Virus record (IMG/VR): IMGVR_UViG_3300036791_000563
Coordinates: 1-43,237 of that record
Reading direction: 5' to 3' (one strand)
DNA: 43,237 bases
DNA from: a virus
Part shown: piece after piece, positions 26,129-40,666 of the stretch
Numbering within the stretch: the stretch's first letter is position 1
Layout of the letters: each line of letters starts with the position of its first letter
Program-made: the position numbers and the translations under genes
The notes under the pieces: model-generated
What the model saw: the letters and a program-made list of their open reading frames with translations, nothing else
Told to the model about the DNA's origin: nothing
Database searches by the model: none

Positions 26129-29100
26129 ATGATCCTAAACCAAGACAAAACAAATATGACAAATAAAATGACAAGAAAAGAAGCAACTGAATTTGCGCGC
26201 CAGATTTTACATGATAATAATTTAGATGATTGGGGCATTAGGTTAAGTACGAATGATCGTTTTCTTGGCCTATGTTCATATAAAGATAAGATTATCTATC
26301 TTAATGCTCATGCCCTAGATATTCATCCATCATCTGAAATAATGAATACTATCCGTCATGAAATAGCTCATGCTCTATGTCCAGGTCATATGCATGATGA
26401 AGTATGGTCTGCTAAGGCTCGTGAACTTGGCTGTGATAATACTTCTAAATGTGGTCTAGCTCTTAATCCTATAGCCATAGATGCCATTCGTTCAGGTCAT
26501 ATGATTGAAGTAATTGAAGAATCTGAAGTAATTCGTAAGGTATCATATAAAGTTACCCGTATATTAGAAAAGTGTCCAGTTTGTGCTAAATTAGGTAATG
26601 ATGTTGTAGCTATTGTAAAGAGCGAATCTGAAAAGAATAATGTTAAGGTTATTACATATCAATGCGGGCATGTAGTTCTTAAGAATATTCCGAAGGGTAC
26701 TCCATATGATTCAATAGTATTTGATGGCAATAAAAACTGCAAGCATCAATTCACTTTACCTGTAAACGCGCAACACAAAACTATATGCAGATTATGTAAT
26801 GCTAAGAGACCATATCCATTTCAGATTAAAGGTATGGAAGCCATAGAACGCGGTTTAGCATTACATAAAGGTTTCGCGGTATTAGATAGCATGGGATTAG
26901 GCAAAGGTCAAATATTATCGGATACAATTCTAACTCCAAATGGATGGAAAAAATTTGGCGATCTGGCAATCAATGATAGTATCATTGGAACCGATGGAAA
27001 TACTTATAAAGTGACTGCAATCTATGATCGTGGAAGATTACAAGTATTTAAAGTAATGTTTACAGACGGAAATTCTGTAACAGTAGATGAGGATCATTTA
27101 TGGCAAGTAAATACTCCATCTAGAAATTATAATAATAGCCCAACAATCACCAAAAGTACGCTTGAACTAGAATTTGATTTACAATATCCAAATGGTAACA
27201 ATAAATGGCAAGTTGAAGTACCATCACCTGCTAAATTCTCAGAGAAAGATTTACCAATAGAACCATATCAACTAGGTATATTATTGGGTGATGGCAGTTT
27301 CGCTCAACATCAAATTTCATTCACTTCTATTGATGATGAAATAATTAATTCCTTCCGTTATAATAGAAAAGAAGGAATTAATTATTTTCTAGATAATTCA
27401 TACCTTCAGATACTTAGAACACTAGATTTAGCAGGTAGAAAATCAGACGACAAATCAATTCCAGAAATCTACAGACTAGGTTCTATTAGCCAAAGATTAG
27501 CATTATTGCAAGGTTTAATGGACAGTGACGGTTCCATATGGAATAATGGAGTTATTGAATATACATCGGTATCCCCATACCTAACAAAAGGTGTTAAATA
27601 TTTAGTAGAATCATTAGGTGGAACAGTCAAGATATCTTCTAAGATTGGGAATTATACTAAGAATAATCAGAAAGTTATTTGCAAGGTAGCTTATAGGGTT
27701 ATCATAAATATTCCTACCAATCCATTTAGATTGAAAAGAAAAGCCGATTTATATCAGAATAGAGTTAAATATAAGCCAGTCAGAATAATCAAATCAATAC
27801 ACTTAATAGGTATAGAAGAAGTAAGATGTATTAGTGTTAATACTCCCAACAATCTCTATATAACTAACGATTTCATAGTAACTCACAATACTATTCAAGG
27901 TCTAGGCTATGTTAAATTCCTTCCTAAAGAAAAGTTGCCAGTTCTATTCGTGGTCAAGTCAGGTCTTAAATATCAGTTCGCGTCCGAAATCATTCGAATA
28001 TTGGGCGATTCTTACTTTCCAATGATTATCAGTTCTGGCAAGGATGGAGTATTTCCGGGCCTAAAATGTTATATCATTGGATATGACATGTTGCGTAATT
28101 TCCCACCAGAAAAGTTAAAGAGTTTGAATATTAAGCTAGTTATATTGGACGAAGTTCAACAGATTAAGAATCCTGATAGTGAAAGATGCAAGCAGGTTAG
28201 AGAGTTAGTTCGGGATATAGATAATGTTCTCCCATTAAGTGGAACCCCATGGAAAAATAGGGGAAGTGAATTATATCCAATGTTTAATATATTGGATGCT
28301 TCTAAATTCCCTTCATATCAAATGTTCTTGAATAACTGGGTAGACTATAGACAGAATATGAATGGGAAATATAAGGAAGCAGGTATTAGGAATCCTAAGA
28401 AGTTTAAGGAATTTGTAAAAGATCTAGTTATTCGCCGAGAACCTGAAGAAGTAATGAAGGAATTTCCTACAATCTCCAGGAATAAACTGGTATGCGAAAT
28501 TCCTAATGTAGAGCAGGAAGCATATGACCATGAAATGGATGATTTCGTTAAATGGTTTAATGATCTTACATTAGAAGGTAAAGATGTAAATTCTCAAATG
28601 CTAATTGCTAAGTTAGCTAGGTTAAGGCATATATTAGGGCTGGCAAAGATACCATTTACAATGGAGCATATTGAGGAATATCTTGAGGAATCTGATGGTA
28701 AGCTCCTATTAGGTATACATCATAAGGATGTTGGAGAAATATTTCATATTAAGCTTAAAGCACTATTAAATGAAGATTATCCAGATATTCCATTGCTTAG
28801 GATAACTTCTGATATGGATTCTTCTGTTCGTTATGAAGCTCAGATGAAGTTTAATAGTTCTAAGCGCGCGATAATGATAGCATCTACATTAGCAGCAGGA
28901 GAAGGTCTTAACCTACAGACATGTGATTATGGTATCCTGCATGAGAGGCAATGGAATCCTGCTAATGAAGAGCAGTTTGAGGGTAGATTAAGAAGAATTG
29001 GTCAACTACATAAGGTAAAATTCCAATATGTTCATGCGCGCGGAACTATTGATGTTCATTTTGATAGCATCATAGAAGGTAAGCGCATTAACTTTAATGC

Positions 29101-29293
29101 GGTTATGAATCATGATTTTCTTCCATTAGATGATGATGCTAAATTTAAGATATGCAAAATCTGTAATAAGAACGAACCTGAGCATGAGATTGCATGGGAT
29201 GGTGATTCTTTAATGAGAGAGTTAGCAGTCACATTAGTAGAAGATGCTAATAAGAATAAGAAGCTTAGATTAGTTCGAGGGGGTAAAAAGTAA
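26129..29293 (+). CDS. SprT-like protease / SNF2 helicase fusion with an intein (1054 aa precursor)
   Basis: Residues ~13-100 form a SprT-like zinc metalloprotease domain with His-Glu-Ile-Ala-His at 77-81 and a further conserved His-rich/Trp segment (His87-Trp93). A Cys-rich zinc section follows (Cys pairs near 150-235). The SNF2-type helicase has Walker A Met-Gly-Leu-Gly-Lys at 255-259 interrupted by a 328-residue intein (260-587), DEVQ at 674-677 (DEAD-type box), and a motif VI Gln-x-x-Gly-Arg-Leu-Arg-Arg-Ile-Gly-Gln at 949-959. A C-terminal Cys pair (Cys-Lys-Ile-Cys) follows. After splicing the protein would be 726 residues. It may act on protein-blocked DNA in replication or repair. The ATG at 26129 lacks a clear ribosome-binding site; ATGs at 26156 and 26168 are alternatives. 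Confidence 0.85.
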   Translation: MILNQDKTNMTNKMTRKEATEFARQILHDNNLDDWGIRLSTNDRFLGLCSYKDKIIYLNAHALDIHPSSEIMNTIRHEIAHALCPGHMHDEVWSAKARELGCDNTSKCGLALNPIAIDAIRSGHMIEVIEESEVIRKVSYKVTRILEKCPVCAKLGNDVVAIVKSESEKNNVKVITYQCGHVVLKNIPKGTPYDSIVFDGNKNCKHQFTLPVNAQHKTICRLCNAKRPYPFQIKGMEAIERGLALHKGFAVLDSMGLGKGQILSDTILTPNGWKKFGDLAINDSIIGTDGNTYKVTAIYDRGRLQVFKVMFTDGNSVTVDEDHLWQVNTPSRNYNNSPTITKSTLELEFDLQYPNGNNKWQVEVPSPAKFSEKDLPIEPYQLGILLGDGSFAQHQISFTSIDDEIINSFRYNRKEGINYFLDNSYLQILRTLDLAGRKSDDKSIPEIYRLGSISQRLALLQGLMDSDGSIWNNGVIEYTSVSPYLTKGVKYLVESLGGTVKISSKIGNYTKNNQKVICKVAYRVIINIPTNPFRLKRKADLYQNRVKYKPVRIIKSIHLIGIEEVRCISVNTPNNLYITNDFIVTHNTIQGLGYVKFLPKEKLPVLFVVKSGLKYQFASEIIRILGDSYFPMIISSGKDGVFPGLKCYIIGYDMLRNFPPEKLKSLNIKLVILDEVQQIKNPDSERCKQVRELVRDIDNVLPLSGTPWKNRGSELYPMFNILDASKFPSYQMFLNNWVDYRQNMNGKYKEAGIRNPKKFKEFVKDLVIRREPEEVMKEFPTISRNKLVCEIPNVEQEAYDHEMDDFVKWFNDLTLEGKDVNSQMLIAKLARLRHILGLAKIPFTMEHIEEYLEESDGKLLLGIHHKDVGEIFHIKLKALLNEDYPDIPLLRITSDMDSSVRYEAQMKFNSSKRAIMIASTLAAGEGLNLQTCDYGILHERQWNPANEEQFEGRLRRIGQLHKVKFQYVHARGTIDVHFDSIIEGKRINFNAVMNHDFLPLDDDAKFKICKICNKNEPEHEIAWDGDSLMRELAVTLVEDANKNKKLRLVRGGKK
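26906..27889 (+). mobile_element. Intein with LAGLIDADG endonuclease, class 3-like (328 aa)
   Basis: The intein splits Walker A: N-extein ends Gly-Leu-Gly-Lys259, and C-extein resumes at Thr588-Ile-Gln. Position 1 is Gly260, not Cys or Ser. It ends Val-Thr-His-Asn (584-587). Trp325 follows the block B Asp-His-Leu, Cys567 is in block F (Val-Arg-Cys-Ile-Ser-Val) and Thr585 precedes His-Asn: the W-C-T triplet of class 3 inteins, which use the block F Cys as first nucleophile. Two endonuclease motifs, Leu-Gly-Asp-Gly-Ser (~386-390) and Leu-Met-Asp-Ser-Asp-Gly (~463-468), mark a full-length homing domain. No CGCG tetramer occurs in it. Confidence 0.85.
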
Positions 29294-30029: not shown

Positions 30030-31046
30030 ATGAGCCGAGCAGCATTATACGCATCATCATCTAAAGGTTTTATTCCAACTCCAATAGTTCAAAGGCCACC
30101 ATTAACTGGATGGCCTCCAGGTTCATATCAATCTATTCTTCCTTGGGATCCACCTAATACTAGAGATTATCTACGCGCTAATGCATGGGCAGTAGAAATA
30201 GAAGGATTACCTTGGGTACCTGGGGCTGCAATGGAGCAACCTCAAAGAATGCTAACATGGTTCCAAGATAGATACCCAATGGAATATCAGATTAAAGGAT
30301 TAAAGAAGCATGCATCTTATGGATATACCCATTTTATCAGAAGCGCGCCAGATTCTATGCAGGGTAATGGTTTAAGTCTTAACCAACTTGTAGATTCATG
30401 CGGTTTAACTAAGCAGTACATTAAATATGTTCACATGTTTATAGGAGCTAAACCTCAAGCATGGGGCGGTCAACCTCAAGATATGTCTACGCAGCAATGG
30501 TTAGATTATGCATTCCCTATTATGGAAGCTCTTATGAATGCTAAGGTAGTAGATGAATTTACTCCAGGATGGGAATGGAATTTATGGAATATTGCGGGTG
30601 GAACTGAATCTCCATCTATACAAGTTCCGCAATCTATTGCTCAATATGCATTAACTAAGGGAATATCTACATGGATGCATTTCTCTCCACATGTTACATA
30701 TTGGGGAGCAGATGGTACAGATTGTCCAGATAGGTATAGTTATTGGCAGAATTTACCAGATGTGCGCGGTATTATGTATCAAGGTGATTCTTCTTGGGAT
30801 ATTGGAGAATTACAAGCGCGCATGGTAGATACTTTAAAACAATTTGGTCAGCAGGGTAATGTTCATCTATTTAGAATGTATGAAGATATAGCTTGGATTC
30901 AATACATGAATAATCCTCCATCTGAAGCTGATGGCAACCTAAGAGGATATTGTGCATGTTGTGCTACTGATGTAGTAGGTGGAACTGACGCTAAAGATTG
31001 GGGATATGGTAATGGGGGTCAGCTTCCTAATGGAGATGTTCTTTAA
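30030..31046 (+). CDS. Glycoside-hydrolase-like TIM-barrel protein (338 aa)
   Basis: The sequence alternates short strands and helices with many Trp/Tyr residues, ending in Cys-Ala-Cys-Cys and a Gly-Tyr-Gly-Asn-Gly-Gly tail. The pattern (His-Ala-Ser-Tyr-Gly-Tyr-Thr-His; Glu-Phe-Thr-Pro-Gly-Trp-Glu-Trp-Asn-Leu-Trp; His-Phe-Ser-Pro-His) matches a group of phage barrel-like proteins with glycoside-hydrolase-like fold that I recall from environmental phages; the glutamates in the second segment are candidate active-site residues. It could be a cell-envelope-degrading or receptor-binding enzyme. Unlike other virion genes it is in the early block. No signal peptide is seen. Confidence 0.55.
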   Translation: MSRAALYASSSKGFIPTPIVQRPPLTGWPPGSYQSILPWDPPNTRDYLRANAWAVEIEGLPWVPGAAMEQPQRMLTWFQDRYPMEYQIKGLKKHASYGYTHFIRSAPDSMQGNGLSLNQLVDSCGLTKQYIKYVHMFIGAKPQAWGGQPQDMSTQQWLDYAFPIMEALMNAKVVDEFTPGWEWNLWNIAGGTESPSIQVPQSIAQYALTKGISTWMHFSPHVTYWGADGTDCPDRYSYWQNLPDVRGIMYQGDSSWDIGELQARMVDTLKQFGQQGNVHLFRMYEDIAWIQYMNNPPSEADGNLRGYCACCATDVVGGTDAKDWGYGNGGQLPNGDVL

Positions 31047-31071
31047 TTCTTAAAGGTCAATTTAAGTAAAT

Positions 31072-31212
31072 ATGATATATAAACCAGTTACTAATAAAAG
31101 AGTCTTAAAGATGGCGGAGAGAAGAGATTATTGGAAGAGATTTAAGTATAAAGGTCGAGTATTTGTTAAAACATTTCAAAATGTAAGGGAGGTAACTAAA
31201 GGATGGAAGTAA
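31072..31212 (+). CDS. Small basic hypothetical protein (46 aa)
   Basis: A 46-codon frame rich in Lys/Arg/Phe/Val starts at ATG 31072 and overlaps the next gene by ten bases. AAAGG lies about 15 bases upstream, a weak signal. The even, basic composition and overlap with the zinc-ribbon gene are the only support. Function unknown. Confidence 0.45.
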   Translation: MIYKPVTNKRVLKMAERRDYWKRFKYKGRVFVKTFQNVREVTKGWK

Positions 31213-31385
31213 TATGTCCACATTGCACATCGCCAGATTTAGAGGTAATTGAATTAGAAGTAGATATAGATTACCATAAAGTTACTCCATGTAAATGGTA
31301 CTGTATTTGCTGTTCAAAAATCTTCTCTTTAAAGGATCTTAATATAAATGGAAATTCTAATACAAAAGAAAAATATCATTCTTGA
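31203..31385 (+). CDS. Small zinc-ribbon protein (60 aa)
   Basis: Cys-Pro-His-Cys at 5-8 and Cys-Ile-Cys-Cys near 34 form a zinc ribbon with a Lys-Ile-Phe-Ser-Leu tail. GGGAGG and AAAGG lie upstream of the ATG. Its 3' end overlaps the nuclease gene start by 38 bases. Zinc-ribbon proteins of this size often act as accessory factors next to replication or recombination genes; no target is known. Confidence 0.6.
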   Translation: MEVICPHCTSPDLEVIELEVDIDYHKVTPCKWYCICCSKIFSLKDLNINGNSNTKEKYHS

Positions 31386-32283
31386 TGCTACTACATTTAC
31401 ATCTGGCATTACATGCGCGCGTATGATGGATTTTAGGTTTAATAATGACCTAATTCCCATCGAAGGTAAATCAAATTCTCTCGAATGCGGATCATTAGTT
31501 CATCATATTCTTGAGGGATATTATAAGGGTAAGAGGGATGGATTATCGAATAATGAAGCCGCTTCTAAAGGATTTGATATTGGTAGTATTTATATCCGCG
31601 GTTGCCCTAGCTGTATTAATGGGAATTGCACTTCTCACGAAAACGTATTAGAATGGCAGGGATTAAAGAATACTCCGGAAGAATCTACTACGAAACCTAA
31701 GAAAACTGGATGGTCTCATGTATTAAAAGTGATGGAAGAGTATTTCGATTATTACAAGAATGATAGTTGGGTTCCCATAGAAATCGAACATGTGAAAGGT
31801 AAGGTGATATATGAGGATGATGAGATTCGAGTTCTATGGAAAGCTAAATATGATTTAATCATTGATACCAATGCAGGATTCTTCCCTGTTGATCATAAAA
31901 GTATGAGTTATAATTATGAGCTCTCACTTTTGAACAATCAATTTATGGGACAGGCAGTATTACTTAACACGCGCGCCATGATGATTAATACCATTGGATT
32001 TCAAACCACTTTAAAACCTGCAGATAAATTTAAGCGCGAAATTAAGAATTATACTCTTGATCAATTAACCGAGTGGTCTCAGGAAATTGTACCATATTGG
32101 GCTAAGATTATCGCGATATATCATGAATCTAATATATATCCGCCTAATTTTAGTTCATGTGAAAAGAAGTTTGGTAGATGCGATTTTTATGATGTATGTT
32201 CAGTTGATCGTTCAATTAGACAGCAAGAATTGAGAATGAAATTCGTTAAGGGAAGAAAGTGGGATATCTCTAATGTTGATTAA
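31348..32283 (+). CDS. PD-(D/E)XK nuclease with iron-sulphur-type cysteines, Cas4/RecB-like (311 aa)
   Basis: The signature runs: Gly-Ser-Leu-Val-His-His-Ile-Leu-Glu (about 47-55), Trp-Lys-Ala-Lys-Tyr-Asp-Leu-Ile-Ile-Asp ... Pro-Val-Asp-His-Lys-Ser (about 170-190; motif II Asp and motif III DxK), and Gln-Phe-Met-Gly-Gln-Ala (motif QhxxY-like). Four or more Cys lie near the N-terminus and C-terminus (Cys-Glu-Lys-Lys-Phe-Gly-Arg-Cys ... Tyr-Asp-Val-Cys), fitting a Cas4/RecB-type 4Fe-4S cluster. It is a likely 5'-3' exonuclease for recombination with the Sak4-like ATPase and SSB-like protein downstream. AAAGGA precedes the ATG. Confidence 0.8.
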   Translation: MEILIQKKNIILDATTFTSGITCARMMDFRFNNDLIPIEGKSNSLECGSLVHHILEGYYKGKRDGLSNNEAASKGFDIGSIYIRGCPSCINGNCTSHENVLEWQGLKNTPEESTTKPKKTGWSHVLKVMEEYFDYYKNDSWVPIEIEHVKGKVIYEDDEIRVLWKAKYDLIIDTNAGFFPVDHKSMSYNYELSLLNNQFMGQAVLLNTRAMMINTIGFQTTLKPADKFKREIKNYTLDQLTEWSQEIVPYWAKIIAIYHESNIYPPNFSSCEKKFGRCDFYDVCSVDRSIRQQELRMKFVKGRKWDISNVD

Positions 32284-32333
32284 ATTATTCATTGAAAATC
32301 TCCTAAGATTATATAAAGAGTGGAGATATCACG

Positions 32334-32474
32334 ATGAGGCTGATTACGTTGGGGAAAATCTTCTTAGGCGCATTCGTTATGTATCTTATAATGTTAAGGA
32401 ATATTAGTTGGGCCTTAGTATGTTCATCATTTGTAACTCTTGTATGGATATTGTTTCATATTAATGAGGTCTAA
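32334..32474 (+). CDS. Small membrane protein (46 aa)
   Basis: ATG 32334 has GGAG about nine bases upstream. The translation has hydrophobic stretches around residues 7-20 and 26-42, with Arg/Asn between, so one or two membrane helices. It lies between the nuclease and HNH genes. It could be a membrane effector or holin-like protein; there is no family match in memory. Confidence 0.55.
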   Translation: MRLITLGKIFLGAFVMYLIMLRNISWALVCSSFVTLVWILFHINEV

Positions 32475-32477
32475 TTT

Positions 32478-32987
32478 ATGATGACTAAAGAAGAAATCAT
32501 GGAGAAAATAAGATCAAAATCTATTGTGGGAGAATCTGATGATGATTGTTATCTATTCACAGGAGCATTGAATAATGGTCATGGAATTATAAATATTGAT
32601 GGAAAAAATTATAGAGTTCACAAGCTAGTCCAATGCTTAGAGAATAATTTCCATATTATGGATGATACTATCCAAGTAAATCATAAATGCAAAAATCGAA
32701 ATTGTTGGAATCCAAAACATACCTATATTGGAACTCAATTAGAAAACGTTCTCGATAGACAACAGAGTCCCCATGCAGTATCAGGTGCGTGGGGCAATAG
32801 TCTAAATAATAAATTTAAAACACATTGTCCACATGGTCATGAATATACGATAGCCAATACTCAATTACAGAAATCTCGCACAGGCTTTTACAGAAAATGT
32901 AGAGAATGTGCGAGATTGAGTAAGAATTTTAATGGCGGTGAAAGAAAATTACCAGAGGGACAGTATTACTCGTCTAAAAAAAGGTAA
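32478..32987 (+). CDS. HNH homing endonuclease (169 aa)
   Basis: The core Val-His-Lys-Leu, then Val-Asn-His-Lys-Cys-Lys-Asn-Arg-Asn-Cys-Trp-Asn-Pro-Lys-His segment, followed by Gly-Thr-Gln-Leu-Glu-Asn, is the same HNH type as the protein at 3044-3478 (His-Asn-Cys-Asn-Arg-Arg-Asn-Cys-x-Asn-Pro-x-His). The last ~60 residues add His-Cys-Pro-His-Gly-His and Cys-Arg-Glu-Cys, a zinc/DNA-binding tail. It is directly upstream of the Sak4-like ATPase. It has no CGCG, unlike the backbone. Confidence 0.85.
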   Translation: MMTKEEIMEKIRSKSIVGESDDDCYLFTGALNNGHGIINIDGKNYRVHKLVQCLENNFHIMDDTIQVNHKCKNRNCWNPKHTYIGTQLENVLDRQQSPHAVSGAWGNSLNNKFKTHCPHGHEYTIANTQLQKSRTGFYRKCRECARLSKNFNGGERKLPEGQYYSSKKR

Positions 32988-32988
32988 T

Positions 32989-33798
32989 ATGCCAATATTA
33001 ACAGACCTTGACCCCGGACTTATTTTTGCACTTTTTAAGGGGGAACCGGGTACTCGTAAATCTACTGCAGCATTAAGTTTCCCATTACCTCAATTTTGGT
33101 TCTCATTCGATAAGAAGATGCAATCTATTATTATTCCCGCGCGGAACTGGAATATTAATAAGGATTTAATCGAATTTGAAGATTATAATGATTGGACTAA
33201 TGCTCGCGCTAAATTAGAAAGATTTCAAATAAATCCCCAACTATCTAATGGTAGACCAATTAAGACTATTATCATTGATAGCATGACCTCAATGGGAGAT
33301 ACAGTTAATCAGCAAACATTACTTACTAAGCGAGGTACTAAAACCAAAGATAATCAAAATGCTGGCAAAGTAATTGGTGGAATCGCGATCAATACAATTG
33401 AAGATTATAATGCAGAAATGGCAGCCTTCCAGGAATTAGTAGCACTTCTAACAGATATTCATAAGAAATATAGTATTCATATTGTACTAATCGCGCATGT
33501 ACTTCAAACCGAATATAAATCTATCGATGGCGAAACCCATATGTCAAGAACTTTAGTTACTGGTGGTAAAAAGGCTGCGGCTAAAGTTCCTGCATATTTT
33601 AGTGAGGTATATCATTTTCAGGTAAAAAAGGATTTATCTGGAGGAGGTACATATGAAGCATTAACAGTTCATACAGGAGATGATTTCGCTAGAACCGCGC
33701 TACCATTACCTAAAACTCTTGAGATCGGTAATGATCCCTTGTACTCAAAGTACATTGAACCTGCCATTAAGAAGTTAAAAGAAGGTGGTATATTTTAA
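32989..33798 (+). CDS. Sak4-like recombination ATPase (269 aa)
   Basis: A RecA-like P-loop ATPase with Walker A Gly-Glu-Pro-Gly-Thr-Arg-Lys-Ser near residue 18 (numbered from the start at 32989) and Walker B Thr-Ile-Ile-Ile-Asp-Ser near 90. A later Ile-Val-Leu-Ile-Ala-His segment (about 166) matches motif 3. The length and the partner genes (nuclease, SSB-like protein) match Sak4-type single-strand annealing ATPases of phages. The start at 32989 is preferred to an earlier in-frame ATG inside the HNH gene because AAAAGG lies six bases upstream. The HNH gene is directly 5' of it. Confidence 0.75.
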   Translation: MPILTDLDPGLIFALFKGEPGTRKSTAALSFPLPQFWFSFDKKMQSIIIPARNWNINKDLIEFEDYNDWTNARAKLERFQINPQLSNGRPIKTIIIDSMTSMGDTVNQQTLLTKRGTKTKDNQNAGKVIGGIAINTIEDYNAEMAAFQELVALLTDIHKKYSIHIVLIAHVLQTEYKSIDGETHMSRTLVTGGKKAAAKVPAYFSEVYHFQVKKDLSGGGTYEALTVHTGDDFARTALPLPKTLEIGNDPLYSKYIEPAIKKLKEGGIF

Positions 33799-33844
33799 TC
33801 TCAATAAACCACAAAACTAACCAAATTAAACTAAGGAAAATAAA

Positions 33845-34258
33845 ATGTTTATCGAATTCACAGAAAAAGATATTCTCCGTTCTAAGATTGTGGAACCTGC
33901 CTTTTATCGTGTTAGGATTGAGGATATTGAATCCAAGATTTCTAATAAAGGTGATTCTACCAATTTTAGATTGGAAGGAGTAATTCTCAAGAATGCAGAT
34001 AATGGTAATGAGAAATATGCTGGAGTTCCTACACCATATCTGTGGTTCTTCAATTCTAAGCAACTTCAACATCTGATTCCTGTTATTCAGGCTGTAGATC
34101 CTGCATGGGAAGTTAAACCCGGAGTTAGAGTAGATCCAGAACTTCTGAAAGGTCAGGAATTGGAAGTCTATATCGGTAATGGAACGTATAACAATCAGAT
34201 TCAGAATCAGATTACTAATCAGTATAGGCCCGTTGTGGAAAAGAGGGTTGTTCGTTAA
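33845..34258 (+). CDS. Single-stranded-DNA-binding-like protein (137 aa)
   Basis: A beta-rich protein with Tyr-Arg-Val-Arg-Ile-Glu-Asp-Ile-Glu near 20, then a Leu-Glu-Gly-Val-Ile-Leu strand and a C-terminal Val-Tyr-Ile-Gly-Asn-Gly. Proteins of this size and pattern next to Sak4 genes are often ssDNA-binding (OB-fold) partners. The C-terminus is basic (Val-Glu-Lys-Arg-Val-Val-Arg), not the acidic tail of bacterial SSB; the very acidic protein encoded next could supply acidic character. AAGGA precedes the ATG. The role is inferred from context. Confidence 0.55.
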   Translation: MFIEFTEKDILRSKIVEPAFYRVRIEDIESKISNKGDSTNFRLEGVILKNADNGNEKYAGVPTPYLWFFNSKQLQHLIPVIQAVDPAWEVKPGVRVDPELLKGQELEVYIGNGTYNNQIQNQITNQYRPVVEKRVVR

Positions 34259-34272
34259 TCTTAGGAGATATA

Positions 34273-34494
34273 ATGCCCACACCTATTAAGGAAGAATTGG
34301 AAAATAGATATGCCTATCATCCAGTTCATGGTACTCAATCTGAAAGGTATGGAGAAATTCGCGCTAAGTGTTTAGAATTGGCAGAAGTAATCTGTAACAA
34401 TACCCCATATTCTAGGGAACAGAGTTTCGCGCTAACTCTATTAGATATGGTAATGATGACTGCTAATGCAGCTATTGCGAGGAATGAACAATAA
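34273..34494 (+). CDS. acb2: Acb2/Tad1-type cyclic nucleotide sponge (anti-CBASS) (73 aa)
   Basis: The helical hairpin pattern Arg-Tyr-x-Tyr-His-Pro-Val-His-Gly ... Gln-x-Glu-Arg-Tyr-x-x-Ile-Arg-Ala ... Leu-Ala-Glu-Val-Ile ... Ser-Arg-Glu-Gln-Ser-x-Ala-Leu-Thr ... Met-Thr-Ala-Asn-Ala-Ala-Ile-Ala-Arg-Asn-Glu matches the Acb2/Tad1 hairpin family as I know it. Members bind cyclic di- and trinucleotide signals of CBASS and block effector activation. The length fits the family. AGGAG precedes the ATG, and the next gene starts at TAATG overlap. Recognition is from memory of the family; a profile search would confirm. Confidence 0.8.
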   Translation: MPTPIKEELENRYAYHPVHGTQSERYGEIRAKCLELAEVICNNTPYSREQSFALTLLDMVMMTANAAIARNEQ

Positions 34495-34652
34495 TGAATT
34501 TACAAGATACTCTCCCAGATGAAGATAAAGAGGAAGATGAAGAAGCTGAAAATGACGAATCTGAAGAGAGTGAAGAGGATAATACTGAAGAATCTGAACC
34601 GGACGATGATAATAATCCAGATGATAAATCTCTTGAAGTTAATTTAAGATAA
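34494..34652 (+). CDS. Highly acidic protein, DNA-mimic-like (52 aa)
   Basis: The ATG shares its A with the TAA of the Acb2-like gene (TAATG), so translation is coupled. Of 52 residues 26 are Asp or Glu and only three are basic, giving about -23 net charge. Acidic proteins of this size can mimic DNA (as Ocr or other anti-restriction proteins do), or act as an acidic tail binding SSB-partner proteins; the sequence does not decide. Its position in a counter-defence cluster favours the first. It lies just before the structured non-coding segment. Confidence 0.6.
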   Translation: MNLQDTLPDEDKEEDEEAENDESEESEEDNTEESEPDDDNNPDDKSLEVNLR

Positions 34653-34689
34653 CAAGATTCATCCATGATAATTCGCACAAATTAGTTCG

Positions 34690-34917
34690 GTATTCTGTAT
34701 TAACTCTACTTTCCCCAGCAGATTAATACATTGGGGGTTTCCCTTAAGAATGCTTATTAATGGTTGGTTATAATCAACCCATGATATAACCGCTGGGGCC
34801 ATTAATAAACCTCGCATATAGGCCGACGGCGTTAAGAATTTCGTGGATGATAGGGCTGGTACTCTAATATATGTCATTCCCTTAAGGGATCATGGCCTCT
34901 ATATTAGTTACCAGCCC
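34690..34917 (+). ncRNA. Putative structured RNA or complex regulatory element
   Basis: The segment has nested inverted repeats: CCCCA/TGGGG (34713-34717 and 34732-34736); TTATTAATGG/CCATTAATAA (34754-34763 and 34799-34808); and a long arm pair from GGGCTGGTA (34853) to TACCAGCCC (34917) with a 9 bp stem, small internal loop and 8 bp stem, enclosing the 12-base palindrome TCCCTTAAGGGA (34878-34889). CCCCAGC also could pair with GCTGGGG at 34791-34797 as an alternative. It lies between two rightward genes and does not encode a protein on the plus strand. Function unknown; a non-coding RNA, RNA-level regulator or DNA cruciform site are possible. Confidence 0.5.
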
Positions 34918-34931
34918 GCATTTTCATAATT

Positions 34932-34973
34932 AAAATATGCCAAAATATGAATAAAATATGCCAAAATATGAAG
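34932..34973. repeat. 21-bp tandem duplication of a gene start
   Basis: Two adjacent 21-base copies (differing at the last base) carry ATGCCAAAATATGAA. The first copy reads Met-Pro-Lys-Tyr-Glu and then TAA; the second begins the next gene with the same five residues. It may be a short leader peptide or just a duplication. Confidence 0.75.
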
Positions 34974-35143
34974 TAAGAAGAACTCTGATAACTCATGAAG
35001 TAATTCAGTTCGAGGCTGATAATTTAGAAGTAGCTCGTATAATCTCAGTAAAAAATAGTTTTAAGCGCGCTAATAAGATGATAATCTTGAATCATAAAGG
35101 TTACGATTATGAGGTAAACTCTATAATAGAAATAGAATCGTGA
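34958..35143 (+). CDS. Small early hypothetical protein (61 aa)
   Basis: The protein mixes strands and one helix (Arg-Arg-Thr-Leu-Ile-Thr-His-Glu-Val; Leu-Glu-Val-Ala-Arg-Ile). No family is recognised. Its first five codons are duplicated just upstream as a mini-frame. No Shine-Dalgarno is visible; the duplication or the structured segment may control it. The TGA overlaps the GTG start of the next gene. Confidence 0.5.
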   Translation: MPKYEVRRTLITHEVIQFEADNLEVARIISVKNSFKRANKMIILNHKGYDYEVNSIIEIES

Positions 35144-35391
35144 CATTTAAAGATAAATATAAATCTGAAGAAGTTTGGGATAAGAAGATAATGATAATAT
35201 CTTTATACCATAATACCATGTTATTAACTCATAAAAGATGGAGAATGATAGATACTGCTAAATATTTTTGTAAGTCCTTAGCTTCTATTTCTGAAGATTT
35301 AAAGATTGCTAAGGCTTTACATGAAGGTTTAGAATTTAATTCAAGGAAGCATGCATTAAAAATTATAAGGAATGGTAATGACGGTATATGA
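35140..35391 (+). CDS. Helix-turn-helix-like protein with GTG start (83 aa)
   Basis: A helical, basic protein with a GTG start that shares bases with the previous TGA. The segment Asp-Thr-Ala-Lys-Tyr-Phe-Cys-Lys-Ser-Leu-Ala-Ser-Ile-Ser-Glu-Asp-Leu resembles a helix-turn-helix. This could bind DNA near the replication genes. The family is unknown and the fold call is weak. Confidence 0.5.
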   Translation: MTFKDKYKSEEVWDKKIMIISLYHNTMLLTHKRWRMIDTAKYFCKSLASISEDLKIAKALHEGLEFNSRKHALKIIRNGNDGI

Positions 35392-35623
35392 ATTGAGAAG
35401 TTATTTTAATGAAAAGTTTGGATTAGATGATTGGCCTAAACAGTATGCAGTAACGCCCGAGACGTATGCAAACGTTTGTCAATTTATATTTGAGAGAACA
35501 GTTCTTAAGCAATCTCAAAATCCATTTGCTGATAATCCTGAATTAAGTTGGATAACTATATCAGTTGGTCCTAATTGCGGTATTATGTTAAAAGATGTCG
35601 AATTAATAATGCTACCAAAATGA
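35378..35623 (+). CDS. Hypothetical protein before the polymerase (81 aa)
   Basis: The start at 35378 is preferred to one two codons upstream because AAGG lies seven bases away from it. The sequence is mixed helix/strand, with Trp-Pro-Lys-Gln-Tyr near 18. It overlaps the preceding gene by 14 bases and the polymerase by four (ATGA). This tight coupling and constant frame usage argue for a real gene; function unknown. Confidence 0.5.
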   Translation: MTVYELRSYFNEKFGLDDWPKQYAVTPETYANVCQFIFERTVLKQSQNPFADNPELSWITISVGPNCGIMLKDVELIMLPK

Positions 35624-38193
35624 GCGAAGATAAAACTAGAGTCGAGGGAAATGGAAATCCATACGCGAAAATTGCTATCATTGGTGAGTCTCCTTCTTAT
35701 GATGAATTAAGAACTAAGCGCGCATTTACAGGGCCAGCAGGTAAATTACTTGACAGTATATTAAAAGATGCTGGTATTAACAGAGCAGATTGCTGGGTAA
35801 CTAATGCATGTAAGTATTTTGTTACCCCAGAACCTAAATTTGGAAGAAAGATTCCATTTAAAGTTCGCGCTAAGAATGATGGTATAGACTTACAGGAATG
35901 TTATAATGAGTTACAGGTGGAAATTAATAATATTAAGCCTAATATCATTATTGCTCTCGGGGGTACTAGTCTTTATGCCGTATCCGGTAAGTCTCCTATC
36001 ACTGATTACCGTGGGAGTATTCTTAGTGGTATTGTGGGTACTAAAGTAATAGGAACATTTCATCCGGCAATGCTTCTTCATACTCAGAAGGATTATTGGC
36101 AGAAGTATATTATTCAATTCGATTTTGTACGCGCCCTTAAACAAAGTTATTTCCCAGAAATTATTCGGCCATCTCGAATATTAAGGGTTGCTAAATCGAG
36201 CGCGGATTTATATGATTTTATATCTCGAAAGAAACCGCGCAAAGGTACAAAATTTAAACTCGCGATAGATATTGAAGCTAAGGAATGCATTCCAATTTGT
36301 ATTGGTATTGCATTTGATCAATATGAAGGTCTTACTATCCCTCTTTGGAATGTTGATGGACATAGTACTATTCCTGATTCTGATTTATCTCATCTTTGGC
36401 TCTTATTAGCAGAGCTATTATATGACTGTGATATCTTACCAATTGGGCAAAACTTCAAGTATGATCAGGATAAGATTGAGCGTCTTGGGTTTGGAATCAG
36501 GAAGTTATATAGTGATACTCTTCTTAAGGGTTTTGCCATTAATCCTGAGTTACCCAAAAATCTCGCATTCTACACATCTATATATACAGAAGAACCTTTC
36601 TACAAAAATGAGGGCATGTACGAGGGTTCGCTTGAAGAATTATTCTTGGGTTGCGCGCGAGACGCATGTTGTACATTTGAAGTAGAATCTAATATGGATC
36701 GCGATTTAGATGAACTTCACATGCGCGATTTCTATAATAATTTCTTGATGAGACTTCATGACTCTTATCTTAAGACTGAAAATATTGGATTTCGCGTTAA
36801 TCATAGTGTACGTGATGAGCTATTACGTAAGTATATTACTTGGACGGAAAGATTGAATTATAAACTCTTTGAAGTTGCGGGTGCTATTATTAACGTTAAT
36901 TCTCCAAAGCAAGTATCATCCCTTCTTTATGAGAATTTTAAGATTCCGAGTCGCGAGGGTACTGGTGAAGAAGTTCTTACACAGTTGCTTTCAAACACTG
37001 TCAAAAGAACAGATCATAGAAGAGCTATTGAAATTATACTTGAAAAGAGAAGAGTTGATAAAACTATAAATACTTATCTAATGGCCCTTCCCGATTATGA
37101 TGGCCGTATGAAGACTACCTATTTCTTATGCCTAGAGACTGGTAGAACTAGTACAGGTCAGCAAGATCCACCTATTAGACCTTGGATTAGAATCCCGAAA
37201 AGGAAATATACTGTAAATGAGGATGGAGAGATAATAACTAAGAAGGGGAAGAAATCTAAAGCTAAAAAGAAAGAGAATTCAAAACATCCTGAAGATAGAG
37301 CAATGGGAATAGCATTCCAAACCATGACTAAACATGGTGATATTGGTAATGATATTCGTTCCATGTTTATTCCAGATCCTGGTGAAGTATTCATTAATAT
37401 TGATTCATCTCAAGCTGAGGCTAGAGTAGTATTCTTACTCGCTAATGATGAACAAGCATTATATGATATTGATCATCACGATTATCATGCTCTTACGGCA
37501 TCATGGTTCTTTGGTGGTTCTGAAGATGATTGGTCTAAATCTAAATGGGGATATGAGCATCCTGTTAGATTCTGTGGTAAAACTCTTAGGCATGCATGTC
37601 ATTTAGGTGCATCTAAGAATCGCGCAGCTTTAACCGTTAATACTGATGCCAGGAAATATAAGATTAAAGATTCTAATGGTGATCTCTTTAACATTAGTGA
37701 GAAATTTGCCGGCGAAGCTATTAGAATATTTCATGCAAAACAGCCATCTATTCAAAAGAATTTTCATGCTGGAATTCAATCAGCTTTATCCGTTAACAAA
37801 AGAAGATTAATAGCGGGGTTACCATATGGAATCGAATCTGAAACCGGAGGAACAAGAATCTTCTATGATAAATGGGGCGATGAACTATTTAGACAGGCAT
37901 ATTCTTACATACCCCAACGAACCGTATCAGATAATACTAAATCTGCCAAATTACGAATTGAGGATAAATTACGAGGGATCAAAATTATCCTTGAAAGTCA
38001 CGATGCATTATTACTCTCTTGCAGAATTAACGAGGTTACTGAAGTTGCTAGAGTTGGAAAAGAGGAAATGGAAAAAGATATCAATTTTACAAATTGTAGC
38101 CTTCCACGACGGAAATTAAGCATCCCTGCTGAAGTAGAAATAGGCGATAATTATATGGAGTTTCAGAAATTTAAGGAAGTGATTAATGCATAA
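35620..38193 (+). CDS. Uracil-DNA glycosylase / exonuclease / family A DNA polymerase fusion (857 aa)
   Basis: Residues 1-180 are a UDG superfamily domain (family 4/5-like): Gly22-Glu-Ser-Pro, the Ala-Phe-Thr-Gly-Pro-Ala-Gly loop, and His148-Pro. Residues ~215-380 are a DnaQ-type 3'-5' exonuclease (Asp217, Glu219; Gly-Gln-Asn-Phe-Lys-Tyr-Asp; Ala-Arg-Asp-Ala). The polymerase has motif A Asp595-Ser-Ser-Gln-Ala-Glu, motif B Lys654 with His-Ala-Cys-His-Leu-Gly and motif C His794-Asp795. It is the replicative polymerase; the glycosylase may recognise template uracil. A start 15 codons earlier lies inside the preceding gene; ATG 35620 overlaps its stop and is preferred. Confidence 0.9.
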   Translation: MSEDKTRVEGNGNPYAKIAIIGESPSYDELRTKRAFTGPAGKLLDSILKDAGINRADCWVTNACKYFVTPEPKFGRKIPFKVRAKNDGIDLQECYNELQVEINNIKPNIIIALGGTSLYAVSGKSPITDYRGSILSGIVGTKVIGTFHPAMLLHTQKDYWQKYIIQFDFVRALKQSYFPEIIRPSRILRVAKSSADLYDFISRKKPRKGTKFKLAIDIEAKECIPICIGIAFDQYEGLTIPLWNVDGHSTIPDSDLSHLWLLLAELLYDCDILPIGQNFKYDQDKIERLGFGIRKLYSDTLLKGFAINPELPKNLAFYTSIYTEEPFYKNEGMYEGSLEELFLGCARDACCTFEVESNMDRDLDELHMRDFYNNFLMRLHDSYLKTENIGFRVNHSVRDELLRKYITWTERLNYKLFEVAGAIINVNSPKQVSSLLYENFKIPSREGTGEEVLTQLLSNTVKRTDHRRAIEIILEKRRVDKTINTYLMALPDYDGRMKTTYFLCLETGRTSTGQQDPPIRPWIRIPKRKYTVNEDGEIITKKGKKSKAKKKENSKHPEDRAMGIAFQTMTKHGDIGNDIRSMFIPDPGEVFINIDSSQAEARVVFLLANDEQALYDIDHHDYHALTASWFFGGSEDDWSKSKWGYEHPVRFCGKTLRHACHLGASKNRAALTVNTDARKYKIKDSNGDLFNISEKFAGEAIRIFHAKQPSIQKNFHAGIQSALSVNKRRLIAGLPYGIESETGGTRIFYDKWGDELFRQAYSYIPQRTVSDNTKSAKLRIEDKLRGIKIILESHDALLLSCRINEVTEVARVGKEEMEKDINFTNCSLPRRKLSIPAEVEIGDNYMEFQKFKEVINA

Positions 38194-38356
38194 AAGACAG
38201 GACCTATATGACTTAAAGCCAAGGTATATCTTTTCAGAAGAAGAGTTAAAAGTATTATGGAATTGGCTCCAATTTCAAACTTTACCACATAACAATGATG
38301 CATTAAAAGAACTTGTAAAACAAATTGGCGACTTTGCATATACCGTCAAGAAATGA
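38186..38356 (+). CDS. Small helical hypothetical protein (56 aa)
   Basis: A 56-codon frame starts within the last codons of the polymerase and its TGA overlaps the next ATG, so it is translationally coupled to both. It is helical and charged with Trp-Asn-Trp-Leu-Gln-Phe in the middle. No family is recognised. Coupling makes it likely to be a real gene. Confidence 0.55.
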   Translation: MHKRQDLYDLKPRYIFSEEELKVLWNWLQFQTLPHNNDALKELVKQIGDFAYTVKK

Positions 38357-39555
38357 CCTTAATAGACGAGGTTCTAATCTCCCATATGGAGATGGAACCT
38401 CCGCAATCATTTTACTATTGGTCTACTTTAGCGGTTATATCTGCTGTAGTAAAGGATAATGTATATTTAGATAGGTCTGCATTCAAAACTTATCCTAATA
38501 TATACGTCATGCTCCATGCAGATTCAGGACTTAAAAAGGGTCCACCAGTATCTTTAGCCAAGAGATTAGTGAGAGCCGTTAATAATACAAGGATAATAAA
38601 TGGAAGAAGCTCAATTCAAGGAATTCTCAAAGAGCTTGGAACTGCGGTTTCAAGCCCTGGAGGTCTCATTAATAAAAAGTCTACCGGATTTATCGTCGCT
38701 TCAGAGTTCACAAGTGCAATTGTTAATGACCCAGCGGCTCTTACGATTCTTACAGATTTATATGATAGAATGTATAATGAAGGAGAGTATGCCTCGCTCC
38801 TAAAGATGGAGCAATTTAAACTTCACGATCCTACTATTACTATCTTAGTCGCCACGAATGAAGCTCATTTTGATGATTTTGTAGGTAATAAAGATTTTAA
38901 AGGCGGCTTTATAGGTAGAATGTTCGTTATAGCAGAGAGTGAAGTTAATAGGCTTAATGCATTAATTCGACCCCTTAAAATAACTCCCAATGAAACTGAA
39001 TGGATTAAATATCTAAAGGAAATAGGAAAATTAAATGGTCCATTCGATCCAATATATGATAAACCAGCAGGTAATTTATATGAAGAATGGTATCATAAAT
39101 TCTATGGAGATGTTAAAGAGCAGGGTGTAGCAGATGAGACGGGTACTATTAATAGGATTGGAGATTCAGTTCTAAAAGTAGCAATGCTTCTTGCACTAGC
39201 TAGAGAACCTAGGTTAGTTATAGAATTAGGAGATATTGAAGAAGCAATCATGAGATGTGAGACATTTATTGGAAGTGTTAGGAAGACTACTCTCGGTAAA
39301 AGTGGTAAATCAGCATCCGCGCTACAAAAGAGAATGATATTAGAAGAATTAGTATCTCGGCCTAATCATTCCGTATCTAGAGAAATATTACTGAAGAAAT
39401 ATTGGATGCATTTTAGCTCATCAGAATTAGATGAAATTATTCAATCTTTTGAAGGAGGAGGTTATATCACATCATCAGCAGTAGGAAATCAAATTATTTA
39501 TACAATGCCTCAATCTAGGGCTGAGGAAATTAAGAATTATTTTAAGGGCAAGTAA
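38353..39555 (+). CDS. DUF3987-like P-loop ATPase (replication helicase/primase-associated) (400 aa)
   Basis: The N-terminal half has a P-loop-like Ala-Asp-Ser-Gly-Leu-Lys-Lys-Gly-Pro-Pro near residue 55-64 and a Phe-Ile-Val-Ala-Ser-Glu segment near 110, as in the DUF3987 family (helicase-like proteins next to primases). The later part is helical, and a wHTH-like segment is plausible near the end (Ser-Ser-Ser-Glu-Leu-Asp-Glu-Ile-Ile). It follows the polymerase and ends where a zinc protein begins. It may be the loader or helicase for replication. The exact assignment is by pattern only. Confidence 0.65.
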   Translation: MTLIDEVLISHMEMEPPQSFYYWSTLAVISAVVKDNVYLDRSAFKTYPNIYVMLHADSGLKKGPPVSLAKRLVRAVNNTRIINGRSSIQGILKELGTAVSSPGGLINKKSTGFIVASEFTSAIVNDPAALTILTDLYDRMYNEGEYASLLKMEQFKLHDPTITILVATNEAHFDDFVGNKDFKGGFIGRMFVIAESEVNRLNALIRPLKITPNETEWIKYLKEIGKLNGPFDPIYDKPAGNLYEEWYHKFYGDVKEQGVADETGTINRIGDSVLKVAMLLALAREPRLVIELGDIEEAIMRCETFIGSVRKTTLGKSGKSASALQKRMILEELVSRPNHSVSREILLKKYWMHFSSSELDEIIQSFEGGGYITSSAVGNQIIYTMPQSRAEEIKNYFKGK

Positions 39556-39821
39556 TGTTCCAGCTTCCTCCCTATAATTGTTATAAATGTGGTAGGTTAT
39601 TAGATGCTTCATCTCATATAAATGATGCTAATATCAAACCAAATCCTGGAGATTTTACAATTTGCATATATTGCGCGTCAGTATTAGTATTTAATGATGA
39701 TCTAACCGCGCGCGCAATTACTGATGAAGAATTATTAGCTCTTTCAGAGGAAAGTAGGCAAATAATTATTGAAGCAGTAGAACAAATTCTGAACTTTATA
39801 TCTTCTAAAAGGAATAAATGA
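39555..39821 (+). CDS. Zinc-ribbon protein (88 aa)
   Basis: Cys-Tyr-Lys-Cys near residue 8 and Cys-Ile-Tyr-Cys near 36 form a zinc ribbon; the remainder is an acidic helix. The ATG shares its A with the TAA of the DUF3987-like gene. Its stop overlaps the next ATG. A role as replication accessory is inferred from position. Confidence 0.6.
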   Translation: MFQLPPYNCYKCGRLLDASSHINDANIKPNPGDFTICIYCASVLVFNDDLTARAITDEELLALSEESRQIIIEAVEQILNFISSKRNK

Positions 39822-40213
39822 TGCTCGTAAACTATGTCGGAATGCTAATGCAATTTCATCAAAAGTTTGAACATTATATCTCATTAACTCCCGAAAGGCA
39901 TGATACTGTACCTAAAAAGGTATTTAAATTGAGGGAAAAGCTAATTGAAGAAGAATTTAAGGAATTTCAAAATGCTCAAACGAGAGTAGAAATTGCGGAT
40001 GCTCTAGCAGACCTTCTATATGTAGTATTTGGTACCTGTGTAAGCTATGGAATACCTATTGATGAAGTTTTCGCGGAAGTTCATAGAAGTAATATGACTA
40101 AATCTAAATTTAAGAGTGAATATGGTAAAACTAAGAAGGGTAAGAATTATGAGGAGCCAAATCTTAAGCCAATTATCGAAAGGGCTCTAAATAATAGCGT
40201 AGTTGATATTTAA
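39818..40213 (+). CDS. MazG-like / all-alpha NTP pyrophosphohydrolase (131 aa)
   Basis: Helices with Glu-Glu-Glu-Phe-Lys-Glu-Phe near 45-51 (ExxE metal-binding) and Glu-Ile-Ala-Asp-Ala-Leu-Ala-Asp near 58-65 (DxxxD pair) are the signature of the all-alpha NTP pyrophosphohydrolase superfamily (MazG / phosphoribosyl-ATP pyrophosphatase-like). It would hydrolyse nucleotide triphosphates; phage members shape the nucleotide pool or remove alarmone-type signals. The start is at ATGATG overlapping the previous TGA, so the second ATG is also possible. Confidence 0.75.
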   Translation: MMLVNYVGMLMQFHQKFEHYISLTPERHDTVPKKVFKLREKLIEEEFKEFQNAQTRVEIADALADLLYVVFGTCVSYGIPIDEVFAEVHRSNMTKSKFKSEYGKTKKGKNYEEPNLKPIIERALNNSVVDI

Positions 40214-40242
40214 GGGTTGATATTTAATATGAAGGAGGCTAA

Positions 40243-40461
40243 ATGGCAAAGAAATTAAAAATGAGCGAGCATCAAGTTTATATGAATGAAAAGAAAGGAC
40301 CATTTAGATGCGATAATTGTGAATATTATGGTTCTACAAATCACTGCAATAATGATGTAATTGTTCAATTAGCTTATGATGGTAAGTTCGGTCTCTATAT
40401 TGATAATGGCCATGCATGGGTAGATCCTGCAGGCTGCAGTGATGAATTTAAGAGAAAGTAA
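40243..40461 (+). CDS. Small cysteine-rich protein (72 aa)
   Basis: AAGGAGG lies six bases upstream of the ATG, the strongest ribosome-binding site in this part. Cys-Asp-Asn-Cys-Glu-Tyr-Tyr near 23 and later Cys residues (Asn-His-Cys, Gly-Cys-Ser-Asp-Glu-Phe) suggest a metal site. I recall small phage proteins of this kind with an iron- or zinc-binding look but no known function. Confidence 0.6.
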   Translation: MAKKLKMSEHQVYMNEKKGPFRCDNCEYYGSTNHCNNDVIVQLAYDGKFGLYIDNGHAWVDPAGCSDEFKRK

Positions 40462-40465
40462 TATC

Positions 40466-40666
40466 ATGACAGATTCATTAAATGTACATGTAAGAGATAA
40501 CTATAAGAGAACTTGCGAATTTTGCTTAAAGGAAATAGAAGGTAAGCCATTCTACTTACCATCTATTAATTCGTCAGGTAAAAAGTTGCAGACTAGATGC
40601 TGTAAATCTTGTTTCTGGGCGCGTCATACTATTCAGATGGATATTAATCCTGAAGGTGATATTTAA
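40466..40666 (+). CDS. Small zinc-ribbon protein at the end of the early block (66 aa)
   Basis: Cys-Glu-Phe-Cys near 16 and Cys-Cys-Lys-Ser-Cys near 47-51 make a zinc ribbon. The start at 40466 is after the stop of the previous gene; an in-frame ATG nine codons earlier lies inside that gene. The TAA (40664-40666) overlaps the stop of the opposing late gene by two bases. Confidence 0.6.
   Translation: MTDSLNVHVRDNYKRTCEFCLKEIEGKPFYLPSINSSGKKLQTRCCKSCFWARHTIQMDINPEGDI

Follow-up and report, generated by a model that had tools for sequence, protein, structure and literature searches.

What interrupts the Walker A motif of a phage SNF2-family helicase, and does the interruption give the protein a means of control or only lodge a mobile element in it? 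The question is raised by a gene in a complete IMG/VR virus record of 43,237 bases, here called the window. Its residues, its relatives and its predicted fold indicate that the insert, at the Lys/Thr point of the P-loop, is almost certainly a class 3 intein, full-length and carrying a LAGLIDADG homing endonuclease.

A phage helicase gene with a split Walker A motif

The gene encodes a precursor of 1054 aa, which predicted splicing would reduce to 726 aa. It matches PHROG 62, DNA helicase (4e-69), and its Pfam domains follow each other in the order SprT-like metalloprotease, LAGLIDADG_3 (PF14528, aa 455–514, inside the insert), SNF2-related domain (PF00176, 5.7e-19, aa 646–821) and helicase C-terminal domain (PF00271, 5.2e-12, aa 847–958). 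The SprT-like domain occupies the N-terminus of the N-extein (26129–26905) and is followed there by Cys-rich segments that may bind zinc. Stand-alone SprT-like proteins are common in phages; the fusion of such a domain to a helicase is the less usual feature of this gene. The HExxH motif was absent from the N-exteins of all the intein-bearing relatives that we fetched, and none of the 970 phage records with a match to the spliced protein spanned 80% or more of its length. Searches of IMG/VR with exact peptide patterns retrieved neither close relatives of the whole protein nor a closely related intein-free allele. As for the genomic setting, the left arm of the record carries minus-strand genes, including a terminase and a weak head-protein match. 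The right arm (window 30030–43230) consists of replication genes, which encode an exonuclease, an HNH endonuclease, a Sak4-like protein, a primase, a nucleotide pyrophosphohydrolase and, at 35575–38193, a DNA polymerase; most of the other right-arm ORFs tested, including one of 855 aa at 40663–43230, had no PHROG match.

The insert separates the Lys from the Thr of the SNF2 Walker A motif (GLGK/GQILSD...VTHN/TIQG, slashes marking the junctions). It begins with the codon GGT (Gly260) at 26906 and ends with the codon AAT (Asn587) at 27889, and its 984-nt frame contains no stop codon, against 18–43 in the other five frames. The junctions read DSMGLGK/GQILSDTILTPNGW and ISVNTPNNLYITNDFIVTHN/TIQGLG or, in a longer form showing the intein ends, MGLGK/GQILSDTILTPNGWKK...EEVRCISVNTPNNLYITNDFIVTHN/TIQGLG. 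Joined without the insert, the flanks give GLGKTIQ, which aligns gap-free at the junction with helicases that lack an intein from three phages: the corresponding residues are GTGKTIQ in Rhodothermus phage RM378, GLGKTVQ in Thermus phage phiLo and GTGKTLE in Bacillus phage BSTP12. The helicase motifs downstream of the junction align with them too. Because the GLGK-TIQG join is gap-free, the intein begins at Gly, and position +1 is occupied by the Walker A threonine itself. We rejected an N-terminal boundary at Ser5 of the intein, since the mature Walker A motif needs GLGK-T; it is also contradicted by the relatives at the P-loop site, whose inteins start directly after the Lys. An earlier note on this DNA, made from the sequence, had described an intein that starts with Gly after Gly-Leu-Gly-Lys instead of Cys or Ser and leaves the Walker A motif unfinished until it splices. 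The alignment with intein-free helicases bears out this start, the position of the insert between Lys and Thr agrees with the unfinished motif, and the coordinates given there, 26906–27889, are exact to the base (Table 1).

Table 1 Features of the intein-bearing helicase gene in the window
Feature	Position	Strand	Basis
SNF2-family helicase gene with intein	26129–29293	+	Single open frame, Pfam, PHROG
SprT-like zinc metalloprotease domain, HEIAH motif, aa 31–102	26219–26434	+	Pfam PF10263, 5.6e-07, above gathering score
MGLGK, 5' half of Walker A, end of N-extein	26891–26905	+	Alignment with intein-free RM378, phiLo and BSTP12 helicases
Assigned class 3 intein, 328 aa, Gly1–Asn328 (precursor residues 260–587)	26906–27889	+	Residues, relatives, predicted fold
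Block B His-Leu-Trp, intein 64–66 (His B:10, Trp B:12)	27095–27103	+	His 93/93, Trp 89/93 in viral set
LAGLIDADG homing endonuclease region	27263–27553	+	Pfam PF14528, 8.1e-10; D129 89/93, D208 92/93
Block F Cys, intein 308 (protein Cys567), predicted first nucleophile	27827–27829	+	Invariant, 93/93 viral and 77/77 bacterial
Block G Thr-His-Asn, intein 326–328	27881–27889	+	Sequence, viral and bacterial census
Thr+1, protein Thr588, Walker A threonine of mature helicase	27890–27892	+	Alignment with intein-free helicases

Class 3 signature, endonuclease and predicted fold

Class 3 inteins are recognized by a residue 1 that need not be a nucleophile, together with Trp B:12, Cys F:4, Thr G:5 and, usually, Ser or Thr at +1 (PMC3196547; PMC5222942). 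The window intein has Gly1, with the boundary set by the GLGK/T join; Trp66 at B:12, two residues past His B:10, in H64-L65-W66 (protein His323-Leu324-Trp325); Cys308 at F:4, which aligns with that of class 3 structures; and T326-H327-N328 (protein Thr585-His586-Asn587) followed by Thr+1. A phmmer search returned the class 3 DnaB1 inteins of M. chimaera and M. smegmatis (6rix and 6bs8) as the top PDB sequence matches, with Trp66, Cys308 and Thr326-His327-Asn328 aligned to the same residues of both. The DxxH motif of block B, reported for M. smegmatis DnaBi1 (PMC6195587), is present as well (VDEDHLW). Every testable sequence feature thus backs the class 3 call of the earlier note, which had placed Trp325, Cys567, Thr585, Asn587 and Thr588 correctly; the alignment with known class 3 inteins that it proposed as a check matched the catalytic residues to those of 6rix and 6bs8, with the N-terminal boundary at Gly.

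Between the two halves of the splicing signature lies the endonuclease, with two LAGLIDADG helices (PF14528) and both motif aspartates, D129 in LLGDG and D208 in MDSDG, conserved. An AlphaFold2 model of the intein, built from 38 sequences, reached a mean pLDDT of 96.2 and a pTM of 0.93. Its best Foldseek matches were the TliVMA and PI-SceI inteins, which both have splicing and endonuclease domains, and comparison with the class 3 structures 6rix, 6riy and 6bs8 gave target-normalised TM-scores of 0.77–0.86 (0.86 for 6bs8_A). As modelled, the window intein has a HINT splicing fold plus an endonuclease.

A widespread family of P-loop inteins

Relatives of this intein are encoded by 746 phage records (tblastn), in 737 of which they span 80% or more of the query; identity is below 60% throughout. 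His64, Trp66, Cys308, Thr326, His327 and Asn328 are invariant in an alignment of 16 relatives, and a wider census gave the same picture, with a uniformity that is partly built in, because the window intein's own family served as query, and that applies inside this family, not among all inteins: the 93 distinct viral inteins (window included) all have His B:10, Cys F:4, Thr G:5 and His-Asn, with Trp (89) or Phe (4) at B:12 and Thr (83), Ser (9) or Cys (1) at +1, and the 77 bacterial ones have His, Trp, Cys and Asn throughout and Thr in all but one (76). Position 1, assigned by a motif rule that is less certain for a few terminase-like hosts, is Ala in 125 of 170 distinct inteins, Gly in 12 and another residue in 33. 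In 90 of the 93 viral cases a Lys, usually that of the P-loop, precedes the intein, and across the viral and bacterial census the insertion site is common to many unrelated ATPases; the Lys/Thr point of the P-loop has been described as a 'classic' insertion site (PMC5050341). The window intein is therefore not novel, since hundreds of phages carry relatives with a nearly invariant triad, mostly at the same P-loop site.

In a tree of these inteins, the window clusters with L011 (the SNF2 intein of Erythrobacter phage vB_EliS-L02) and with L020 and L078 from IMG/VR (support 0.95, deeper nodes being weakly supported). These three, 39–43% identical to the window intein, share with it the GLGK site in SNF2-domain proteins, Gly1, the W-C-T triad and the THN end; unlike the window, their N-exteins have no SprT-like HExxH motif, and L078 has Ser+1 instead of Thr+1. 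Gly1 is the norm in this small lineage, because all four members have it directly after GLGK.

Some members of the family depart from the signature. Four viral SNF2 P-loop inteins (L064, L073, L074 and L087, three of which form one clade) read HLF, with Phe for Trp B:12, and retain Cys F:4 and Thr-His-Asn. They may represent naturally occurring variation in the class 3 signature, since replacing Trp B:12 by Ala blocks splicing in the class 3 inteins tested (PMC5222942). Two related viral SNF2 inteins, L043 and L062, combine Cys1 with a full W-C-T triad (N-junctions GLGK/CLSISEL and GLGK/CISTSES), so that either a class 1 or a class 3 first step looks possible; their close sister L054 has Ala1. 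Finally, in gp2 of Mycobacterium phage Phrappuccino (L016, 2569–3627), a class 3-type intein is followed by Cys+1.

Proposed splicing and the question of a switch

The analysis established the signature, the boundaries, the predicted fold, the relatives and the shared site at the level of sequence and model; from these we infer splicing, its chemistry and homing, with the individual steps taken from established class 3 chemistry. Cys308, aided by His64 and Thr326, would attack the Lys259-Gly260 bond to form the block F branched intermediate, and the N-extein would then be transferred to Thr+1. Cyclisation of Asn328 and an O-to-N shift would seal the helicase and finish GLGKT. By homing, the endonuclease presumably introduces the element into alleles that lack it. 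Such a mobile element would be tolerated because it removes itself, and the intein can be explained without a regulatory role.

Splicing might nevertheless act as a conditional switch, as the earlier note proposed for helicase activity: the helicase, together with the SprT-like protease fused to it, would have no ATPase activity until stress or a signal from the infection allowed splicing. The split Walker A motif would suit such a role, and so would two precedents: the ATPase function of RadA is disrupted by an intein in its P-loop (work cited in PMC6195587), and oxidants reversibly inhibit the P-loop class 3 intein of M. smegmatis DnaB (PMC6195587). The block F Cys of the window intein could likewise be oxidised. 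However, the redox switch of DnaBi1 works through a disulfide that links the Cys of block F to another at intein position 48 (PMC6195587), and when we looked for a second Cys in the window intein we found none near that position. Its only cysteines are Cys308 and Cys259, the latter located past the second LAGLIDADG motif and ahead of block F, and a switch of the DnaBi1 type through a second Cys was rejected accordingly. The window itself contains no sequence evidence of control, and an insertion site common to many unrelated ATPases would be accounted for no less well by homing that favours conserved DNA. We therefore regard a conditional switch as very unlikely. Judging from the studies of RadA and DnaB to which PMC6195587 refers, the precursor probably lacks ATPase activity because its Walker A motif is split, a state that would be expected for every P-loop intein and not for the window alone. 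That splicing gates the fusion of the SprT-like protease to the SNF2 motor, with a precursor that could keep protease but lack ATPase activity until splicing, is an idea to which we give very little credence; if true, the splicing-gated SprT-SNF2 protein would be a two-state enzyme.

The intein could also have decayed to a non-splicing remnant within a dispensable gene. The signature is not in itself proof of activity: Arsp-FB24, which resembles class 3 inteins but whose signature is damaged, proved dead (PMC3196547). The window copy also has no close relative from which selection could be gauged. Against this, all the catalytic residues are in place, the endonuclease retains its two motif aspartates, the frame is open and neither extein has lost its motifs, and on these residues we rejected decay as very improbable. 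Direct attack of Thr+1 on the N-terminal junction, as in class 2 splicing, is extremely unlikely, because the window intein shares with class 2 inteins the missing nucleophile at position 1 but has Trp B:12, Cys F:4, His G:6 and Thr+1, all class 3 features, whereas the class 2 inteins described so far, which are orthologs of KlbA, carry Ala1, Asp F:4, Ser G:6 and Cys+1 (PMC4031507).

Comparison with known class 3 inteins

The self-removing class 3 intein that we favour is one more clear, intact example, complete with its homing endonuclease, in a family that phages and bacteria were already known to carry. As a member of that family the copy in the window is ordinary; the wider value of the census lies in showing that class 3 P-loop inteins are uniform and widespread in phage helicases, and in the departures that it revealed (Phe B:12 and Cys1), which bear on the origin of class 3 splicing. 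Among characterized systems, M. smegmatis DnaBi1 and M. chimaera DnaB1 (6bs8, 6rix) share with the window the P-loop site, the W-C-T triad, the block B DxxH motif and the HINT fold. They differ in being mini-inteins without an endonuclease, in a replicative DnaB and with Ser+1, whereas the window intein has an endonuclease, an SNF2 host and Thr+1; DnaBi1 further has Ala at position 1 and its redox partner Cys48, in place of Gly1 and no Cys48 in the window. The TerL1-a inteins of mycobacteriophages are likewise inserted between the Lys and Thr of the P-loop, but in terminases and not in an SNF2 helicase (PMC5050341). The D. radiodurans Snf2 intein, as described in PMC3196547 (citing Brace et al. 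2010), is a class 3 intein that splices efficiently via a block F branched intermediate; by that description it resembles the window intein in residing in an SNF2-family helicase, although its host is a bacterium and not a phage.
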